35,656 nt of DNA, taken from positions 1-35,656 of the forward strand of contig JAQCCM010000017.1 in NCBI GenBank assembly GCA_027621175.1, in the 5' to 3' direction. The position numbers were made by a program, and so were the translations under genes. Under the pieces are notes generated by a model that was not told the origin of the DNA, did not search any database, and was given only the letters and a program-made list of their open reading frames with translations. Within the stretch, counting starts at the first letter, position 1. The number at the start of each line of letters is the position of its first letter. The stretch is from Bacteroidota bacterium. GTDB taxonomy: Bacteria; Bacteroidota; Bacteroidia; Flavobacteriales; Flavobacteriaceae. Of this stretch, positions 32,857 through 34,436 are shown piece by piece.

Positions 32857-32929
32857 CGCGGGATAGAGCAGTAGGTAGCTCGTCGGGCTCATAACCCGAA
32901 GGTCGCTGGTTCGAGTCCAGCTCCCGCTA
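32857..32929 (+). tRNA. Initiator tRNA-fMet (anticodon CAT)
   Basis: The cloverleaf is complete. The acceptor CGCGGGA pairs with TCCCGCT except at position 1-72 (C-T mismatch), the D stem GAGC/GCTC has A11-T24, and the anticodon stem ends in three G-C pairs around the loop CTCATAA. The unpaired 1-72, A11-U24 and GGG/CCC features identify the initiator rather than an elongator methionine or isoleucine tRNA. CCA is not encoded (CAC follows). The opposite strand of positions 32889-32929 is read as the end of the serine recombinase gene. Confidence 0.97.
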
Positions 32930-34436
32930 CACACCGGGACAAATCTTGTTTTTGAGATTTGTCCCTTTTTTTATTTCTTCGGTTTACTCTGTTAAATTGG
33001 GCTATTTTGTGCAAAATGGGGTTAATATCAGCGGTTCGAACTTTTTTATTTTCAAATTGAAATTTTTCAGGAAATATCGAACCAATAAACCTTCTTTTAT
33101 GATCAATTTCACTTTTAATATATTGATTTTCAATGTTTTGAATTGATTTCAACCCCTCTTTATACAAATTAAAAACTTCTTGTTTTTTAAAAAACTGTTC
33201 TTCTCTATCCTTAAGCTCATTAATTAGAGTCTTATAACGCTCCTTACTTTGTGTATATTCTTCTTTGGTAAGGTCGCCATCAATATATAAATCTTGAATT
33301 TTCAATAACTTATTTTCAAGGTTTTTTAGTTTCTCGTAATGTTTTGGACCCATTCCGTTTTGCTTACCCATTTTTTCAAATTCCTCTTTGATGATCTCTA
33401 CCAAAAGGGTATATGAGTTATCATCTAAACTGATAGAGCTGAGAAAATGATTGAACCAAGCATGGGCGTCCTCTTTTTTTATTCGCACATCGCAAGGAGA
33501 AAAACAATGATAGTAAGCATATTTTTTATGTCTTCCTGTTGAAATACTCGCTGATAGGGGTTTGTTACATTTAGGGCATGTCATAAATCCCCTTAAAGGA
33601 AAATTTGGATTTATCTTTTTGTGTCCAACTCCTTGTTGCTTATTATTTCTATTTAAATGATTTTGAACTTTATTATAAAGCGCTCTACTAACTATAGGCT
33701 CATGTATTCCCTCAATAAATTGTTCTCTTTCTTCTTTGTAGAGCTTTAAATATACAAGACCAGCGTAAAGTGGATTTCGAATCATATTGGAAAAAGCTGT
33801 TTTACTGGACTTATAGCCCTTAGCTTGAAGCGTTCTTAACACATCTTTTAGATTGTATATACCAGTAGAGACAAGCTCAAAAGCTTCTTGAATGTATTTA
33901 GCATCTTCATTAGGTATAAGAATGGGTTTATTAGTGCTATCTCTTCCCACGCTATATCCTTTTGGTGGAGAACCCACGTAACGACCTTCTTTAAAAGCAC
34001 GTCTTGTTCCAGCGATTACATTTTGTGATCTTCTTAGATTCTCCACTTCTGGGATAGATAGATACACAGCCAGCATAAGCCCTTGCTCTGGGATAGATAA
34101 GTTTAAAGACTGCTCAATGGCATTGACATTGATTCCTAAGCCTTGAAAAAAATTAATTTTACTGTAGGACTCCGCTGTATTTCTTGAAAACCTGTCCCAT
34201 TTTACAAACAGTAGTTCATCTATTTTTTTGTAATTCTTTTTACAATAGCCAATGAGTTTCTTCATCTCAGGCCTGTTAAAAGTTTTAGCAGAATGATCTT
34301 CCCTATATATTTCCAATACATGCAAACTGTTGTTTTTACAGTATTGAATAAGTTTTTGTTCTTGATCCCTAAGTGAAAACCCTTTCTGGGCTTGTTCATC
34401 TGTGGAAACCCGAACATATAAAATGACATTTTTCAT
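32889..34436 (-). CDS. Large serine recombinase (integrase) reading into tRNA-fMet
   Basis: This 515-residue site-specific recombinase probably integrates and excises the element to its right. The resolvase domain (about 1-150) has the catalytic Ser11 in YVRVSTDEQ and the conserved KWDRFSRN block. A recombinase domain (about 160-265; PPKGYSVGRD) follows. A zinc ribbon has Cys287, Cys290, Cys311 and Cys315. A coiled coil spans about 365-440. Residues 489-501 are encoded across the tRNA terminator hairpin. Residues 504-515 (AGAGLEPATFGL) are antisense to the tRNA-fMet 3' half, and the TGA stop falls in the anticodon loop. The natural C-terminus may therefore be set by the integration site. The start ATG directly follows the TAA of the small upstream ORF. 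Confidence 0.92.
   Translation of the reverse strand: MKNVILYVRVSTDEQAQKGFSLRDQEQKLIQYCKNNSLHVLEIYREDHSAKTFNRPEMKKLIGYCKKNYKKIDELLFVKWDRFSRNTAESYSKINFFQGLGINVNAIEQSLNLSIPEQGLMLAVYLSIPEVENLRRSQNVIAGTRRAFKEGRYVGSPPKGYSVGRDSTNKPILIPNEDAKYIQEAFELVSTGIYNLKDVLRTLQAKGYKSSKTAFSNMIRNPLYAGLVYLKLYKEEREQFIEGIHEPIVSRALYNKVQNHLNRNNKQQGVGHKKINPNFPLRGFMTCPKCNKPLSASISTGRHKKYAYYHCFSPCDVRIKKEDAHAWFNHFLSSISLDDNSYTLLVEIIKEEFEKMGKQNGMGPKHYEKLKNLENKLLKIQDLYIDGDLTKEEYTQSKERYKTLINELKDREEQFFKKQEVFNLYKEGLKSIQNIENQYIKSEIDHKRRFIGSIFPEKFQFENKKVRTADINPILHKIAQFNRVNRRNKKRDKSQKQDLSRCVAGAGLEPATFGL
32936..32972 (+). terminator. Intrinsic terminator of tRNA-fMet
   Basis: GGGACAAATCT (32936-32946) pairs perfectly with AGATTTGTCCC (32955-32965) around an 8-nt loop, followed by seven T (32966-32972). 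It begins 7 nt after the tRNA. The same DNA is coding sequence for the recombinase on the other strand. Confidence 0.9.

Follow-up and report, generated by a model that had tools for sequence, protein, structure and literature searches.

A large serine recombinase gene ending antisense within an initiator tRNA gene, and the probable exchange of its C-terminal tail on integration

The large serine recombinase gene described here probably marks the integrase end (int end) of an element inserted at the 3´ terminus of tRNA-fMet, with attP lying inside the integrase gene itself and the C-terminal tail of the enzyme being exchanged on integration. The window analysed, 35,656 nucleotides long, is an entire contig (C7) of a 1.73-Mb, 42-contig assembly that is 86% complete (Table 1). 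The junctions, their spacing, both kinds of tail and the codon-level conservation of the native tail are seen in the sequences of relatives, and the element in the window would be expected to behave as theirs do.

Table 1. Features of the int end of the element and of the adjoining tRNA gene
Feature	Position	Strand	Basis and remarks
Initiator-type tRNA-Met(cat)	32857..32930	+	ARAGORN; initiator features by eye; 3´ end is the putative attB
Large serine recombinase, 515 aa	32889..34436	-	ORF, Pfam, PHROG; last 12 codons and stop antisense to the tRNA
T-loop TCGAA, putative zinc-ribbon-domain motif of attB	32910..32914	-	14 nt from the core; spacing from the sequence and relatives
Putative crossover dinucleotide GT (complement of A73-C74)	32929..32930	-	attL, attR and empty-site comparisons in relatives; inside valine codon 32928-32930
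Part of the element inside the window	32931..35656	.	Contig ends at 35656; far end lies beyond it
Int-side att arm, 11-bp dyad and T run	32936..32972	+	Sequence; similar dyad and spacing in relatives; 5 nt from the core
Accessory gene, 284 aa, HTH-like by eye	34671..35525	-	Upstream of the recombinase; homologues in relatives

The sequence-only reading had described a recombinase frame that enters the initiator tRNA gene, with its last twelve codons antisense and its stop codon over U33, C34 and A35, and the ARAGORN and ORF coordinates agree on every point. The final 12 codons (32892-32927) lie wholly within the tRNA gene, and the stop (32889-32891) overlies the three named positions, the anticodon being 32890-32892. 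Inspection by eye shows a GGG/CCC anticodon stem and a C1:U72 mismatch, consistent with an initiator tRNA. In the ORF translation the C-terminus of the protein reads ...SRCVAGAGLEPATFGL, and is also given as ...DLSRCVAGAGLEPATFGL. Pfam finds a Resolvase domain (PF00239, 8.8e-24) followed by a Recombinase domain (PF07508, 6e-12), while the zinc ribbon (PF13408) scores 23.7 bits, slightly below the 25.3 cut-off. In 13 aligned recombinase sequences, C287, C290 and C311 are invariant and C315 nearly so; R9, V10 and S11 are invariant in all 13, and S11 is the residue that we take to be the catalytic serine. With the match to the PHROG 95 integrase (3.3e-78), Pfam and PHROGs assign the protein to the large serine integrases, and its frame of 515 aa keeps the main domains intact in the integrated state.

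The same arrangement recurs in relatives. Recombinase 3´ ends were surveyed at 27 distinct and 11 further loci, of which 33 were scorable once L006, L019, L177 and L182 (cut by contig ends) and L186 had been left out. An in-frame run into an antisense tRNA or tmRNA gene was found in 25/33, so that the overlap in the window is more than chance. The RNA genes concerned are 12 kinds of tRNA plus tmRNA: fMet (5), other Met(cat) (2), Leu(taa) (4), Leu(caa) (2), Arg(tcg) (2), Arg(acg) (1), Arg(tct) (1), Lys (1), Asn (2), Val (1), Glu (1), Gln (2) and tmRNA (1). Eight of the 33 lack the overlap; two of them carry a native, element-type tail (L002, L030) and six another end. The L005 recombinase stops 180 bp before a tRNA, that of L014, located at tRNA-Arg, has its stop at the core, and L013 runs into a tRNA-Leu-like fragment. 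Those of L018, L025 and L185 reach no tRNA called by ARAGORN. Apart from these six, the recombinase of L028 is broken upstream. A tRNA-type tail at a site with no called tRNA, which had been named as evidence against the proposal, was seen only in L013 and L018, where the sequence is fragmentary or degenerate, and perhaps in the distant viral-contig loci L196, L197, L202 and L205. A second, divergent serine recombinase of the window's genome (L008, G000:C29:71785-72606) ends antisense within tRNA-Arg(tcg).

The crossover was positioned by comparing attL, attR and empty sites of relatives. In the closed genome G071, element A extends from tRNA-Leu(caa) as far as about 983,985, an end located through the terminator that follows the same tRNA in G005, a genome of another genus, and that matches at this point (38 bp, 95% match). 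Its attL ends ...GAGTAC and its attR ...GGTGTAC, and the empty site in G005 reads ...GAGTAC followed by the matching terminator. At tRNA-fMet, the element of G311 has CTAC at each end and a matching empty site in G165, and the far end of the G313 element adjoins the terminator found after tRNA-fMet in G305 and G004, again with the core CTAC. What the junctions share is GT, read on the recombinase strand and complementary to A73-C74; at tRNA-Asn it is GC. These comparisons support a crossover at the 3´ terminus of the tRNA, within the recombinase frame, in relatives, which places more exactly the crossover that had been expected in or near the tRNA 3´ half. Moreover, ...CCCGCTAC is common to 15/15 listed same-genus tRNA-fMet loci, and those with sequence beyond it then differ; the hairpin of the window's element follows the tRNA in three of them (G000, G300, G313). 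The crossover of the window's element would accordingly be expected at the GT of its valine codon, and no att core that spares the recombinase stop was found in the window's clade.

The other end of the window's element had also been sought. The core could be placed in relatives, but the far end was not found in the element's own assembly (G000), and the genes downstream of tRNA-fMet in same-genus genomes, read for this end, were not shared. Between genes at L003 1501-1527 (G000:C3:124890-124916) lies an isolated 27-bp sequence, 93% identical to half of the hairpin arm, which is possibly an old end.

Past the core at the far ends of the elements, the recombinase frame would read on as V[HV]xI[DE]LFS[KN]Q..., with VHHIDLFSNQTLELFQNLAEDF and VHSIDLFSNQTIDIFKKLAEQNSD as examples from element A. 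Four loci have such an element-encoded tail attached to recombinase sequence. Three of them, L002 (contig C12 of the window's own genome, tail ...DLSHLVHPIELFSKQSLSFLKKIVD), L147 (G264) and L169 (G300), are decayed upstream. The fourth, L030, is the sole one of full length; it is 58% identical to the window protein, and its tail, VEQRGVVSNYFNSDLRLLQKK, has another sequence with the same 19-nt spacing. The structure prediction of L030 (mean pLDDT 50.3) was uninformative. With a query that carries a native tail, 13/15 non-self matches stopped at the core (query residues 96-101), the two exceptions being a fragment (C13) and a contig end (C17). An att pattern, built from the first sites found and specifying codons 1-9 only, gave 32 sites in 18/33 genomes, as against 1 for the backwards pattern; the genomes scanned were recombinase carriers, genus members or hosts of named loci. 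Native tails were counted at 30 distinct sites. Together, the junctions and native tails support, for relatives, the idea of two C-terminal forms, a chromosomal one when integrated and a different one when free; such forms might bias integration against excision, as had been suggested. For the window's element both forms would be expected. Its far end lies off the contig, and by comparison with G311 and G313 the tail in its circle would be about V-VPID[LI]FSKQS.... The last 80 nt of contig C17 (the L006 end) recur at the start of C12 (L002 1-160) beside a transposase-like end, an assembly branch within a decayed recombinase of G000.

The native tail looks selected as protein in the window's clade. 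Its diversity was measured in 24 tails, the 30 distinct sites minus one degenerate and five near-identical ones, and p values were obtained by permutation of positions within codons. Over codons 10-18, the diversity at codon positions 1, 2 and 3 is 0.39, 0.23 and 0.62 (p = 6e-5), against 0.63, 0.64 and 0.63 in a downstream control (p = 0.60); a second downstream control gave p = 0.37. No stop occurs up to codon 18 in any of the 24 native frames, and each ends somewhere in codons 19-26. The half-site of 25 bp described for these enzymes does not extend to codons 10-18, so known DNA contacts offer no explanation, and it is this codon-phased conservation beyond the half-site that suggests selection on the protein. 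The integrated tails vary with the tRNA, so any selection on the native tail must operate in the forms that carry it, the circle or a tandem junction. The antisense peptide was also considered as the selected tail and rejected; it is dictated by the tRNA and differs by target.

It is proposed that attP lies within the 3´ end of the element's own integrase gene and would comprise a translated, terminator-like hairpin on the int side, a crossover at the GT of a valine codon, and another arm encoding a native tail of about 19-26 residues. The attB site would be the 3´ end of the tRNA, with the T-loop TCGAA as at least part of what is recognised; in attP this motif stands 5 bp farther from the core. 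On integration, the native tail would be replaced by residues encoded antisense to the tRNA (AGAGLEPATFGL in the window), and excision would restore it. Since only the circle or a tandem junction would have the native tail attached, the function for which it is conserved presumably acts there, most likely by aiding integration or by controlling the enzyme before integration. As a tentative extension, to which we give less than even odds, attP within the gene could act as a state sensor: the native tail would work only in the circle, where it drives or licenses integration, and the same enzyme would also move int-less units that have the same ends, giving tandem cassette arrays at tRNA genes. 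If so, integration would remove the tail, and directionality would be built into the gene.

It is also possible, although we would not bet on it, that the tails are exchanged and yet both forms work alike, the tail being a passive by-product of an attP inside the gene. The integrated tails differ across 13 RNA genes while their frames stay open, and L201 and L204 have very short tails of the free-form type, as such a by-product would allow; the codon-phased conservation of the native tail past the DNA half-site argues against it. Conservation of the element-arm codons purely as DNA, for recombinase binding, is improbable. There is a strongly conserved DNA motif within codons 1-9, and int-less units carry the same arm, but over codons 10-18 position 3 (0.62) is as diverse as unconstrained flank (about 0.63) with position 2 at 0.23, and the two other reading frames show no codon phasing (p 0.88 and 0.94).

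Classical tRNA-site integration, in which attP copies the tRNA 3´ end and excision leaves the recombinase tail unchanged, is judged very unlikely. A direct-repeat search within 60 kb found no tRNA-derived repeat of 14 nt or more in four elements, and the far ends of A, B, L028, D and G311 differ from the tRNA after the 4-nt core. What speaks for it comes from distant relatives. Phage and plasmid collections held no recombinase record at 60% identity or more and viral contigs no close relative, but an alignment search of the latter gave 371 distant relatives, of which 80 were kept and 12 examined. Short tails of the free-form type, together with part of a tRNA acceptor, occur in L199, L201 and L204; in L199 and L201 about 13 nt of acceptor past the core are shared. 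The element arm of L204 starts tRNA-acceptor-like and has TCGAA at 19 nt, and no matching tRNA turned up among the loci examined. L196, L197, L202 and L205 carry tRNA-like 14-nt arms where ARAGORN calls no tRNA, and the arm of L202 resembles tRNA-Asn further along. With such short tails and tRNA-like arms in viral-contig relatives, selection on the tail can be regarded as established in the window's clade alone. Finally, it is hardly credible that the overlap is a biologically meaningless artefact of annotation: antisense tRNA frames are often open and several relatives are decayed (L013, L025, L028 and L185), but the same frame, the same core and a recurring hairpin spacing are found at 25 loci and 13 RNA genes.

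The recognition of so many targets would find an explanation in the tRNA itself. In relatives, TCGAA or a close variant lies 14 nt past the core in the tRNA, where it forms the T-loop, and 19 nt past it in the element arm. This is the same 5-bp shift as that reported for the zinc-ribbon motif between attB and attP of serine integrases (Rutherford et al., PMC3783163). The T-loop is thus a putative attB motif, which would let one enzyme family use many tRNAs, and recognition of T-loop and tRNA 3´ end would explain the reach to at least 13 kinds of RNA gene. The int-side hairpin arm belongs to the recombinase coding sequence on the minus strand and, with its T run on the tRNA side, could replace the tRNA terminator displaced by integration.

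The enzyme resembles large serine integrases of the A118/LI, Bxb1 and phiC31 type in its Resolvase and Recombinase domains, putative zinc-ribbon cysteines, short core and, in relatives, the 5-bp motif shift between attB and attP (PMC3783163). It would differ in an attP inside the 3´ end of the integrase frame, in targeting tRNA and tmRNA 3´ ends, and in a C-terminus exchanged on integration. Parts of this arrangement are already known from the cited accounts. Archaeal suicidal integrases (SSV1, pTN3, pT26-2) likewise have an att site translated inside the integrase gene, comparable to the core within the valine codon here, and use many tRNA targets, but these are tyrosine recombinases split into inactive halves, described in that source as exclusively archaeal (PMC8371274). 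The present enzyme is a bacterial serine recombinase that is not split on integration and keeps its main domains while its tail changes. In the integration-dependent immunity of mycobacteriophage BPs, attP in the repressor frame yields one protein with two C-terminal forms, one per state, integration shortening the repressor by 33 residues with loss of a degradation tag (PMC4557955); here, the site is in the integrase gene instead of the repressor gene, and the integrase would swap its own tail. In a literature search with most subscription papers outside its scope, no description of a bacterial serine integrase exchanging its tail for antisense tRNA was recognised. How serine integrases make integration one-way is a key problem, and their use in genome engineering rests on it. 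A natural enzyme with a separate tail for each state would directly test whether the far C-terminus has a role in direction.

The accessory gene upstream of the recombinase has no Pfam or PHROG match; homologues occur in L028, L043 and L046 among 21 loci scanned, many with short flanks, and it might, speculatively, be a candidate directionality factor. In L028 (4220-5766) and L046 (10084-11554), a small divergent gene (MTISLKVA...KIMLRRLAEKYKVSLSEFM), an accessory gene of 284-299 aa and the recombinase recur together, possibly as a recombination module. Element-arm sites also occur in pairs of the same orientation, 111-114 bp apart (L034 9350/9461, L037 8046/8157, L085 17916/18027, L156 115/229), and apparently represent int-less mini-units in tandem, each consisting of core, tail-coding arm, hairpin and core. 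An 18-kb unit at tRNA-fMet in G311 (L085 463-18070) is bounded by CTAC and the element arm; no recombinase was recognised in its ORF list by eye, its cargo looks, again by eye, like polysaccharide-utilisation genes, and one cargo ORF, of 464 aa, likewise has a PIDLFSKQ-type C-terminal tail. Several elements (L046; L033-L034, in element A of G071; L006) carry a reverse transcriptase, presumably, by its appearance, of the diversity-generating retroelement type, and with it a target-like protein that ends ...YGFSVRFVRD.
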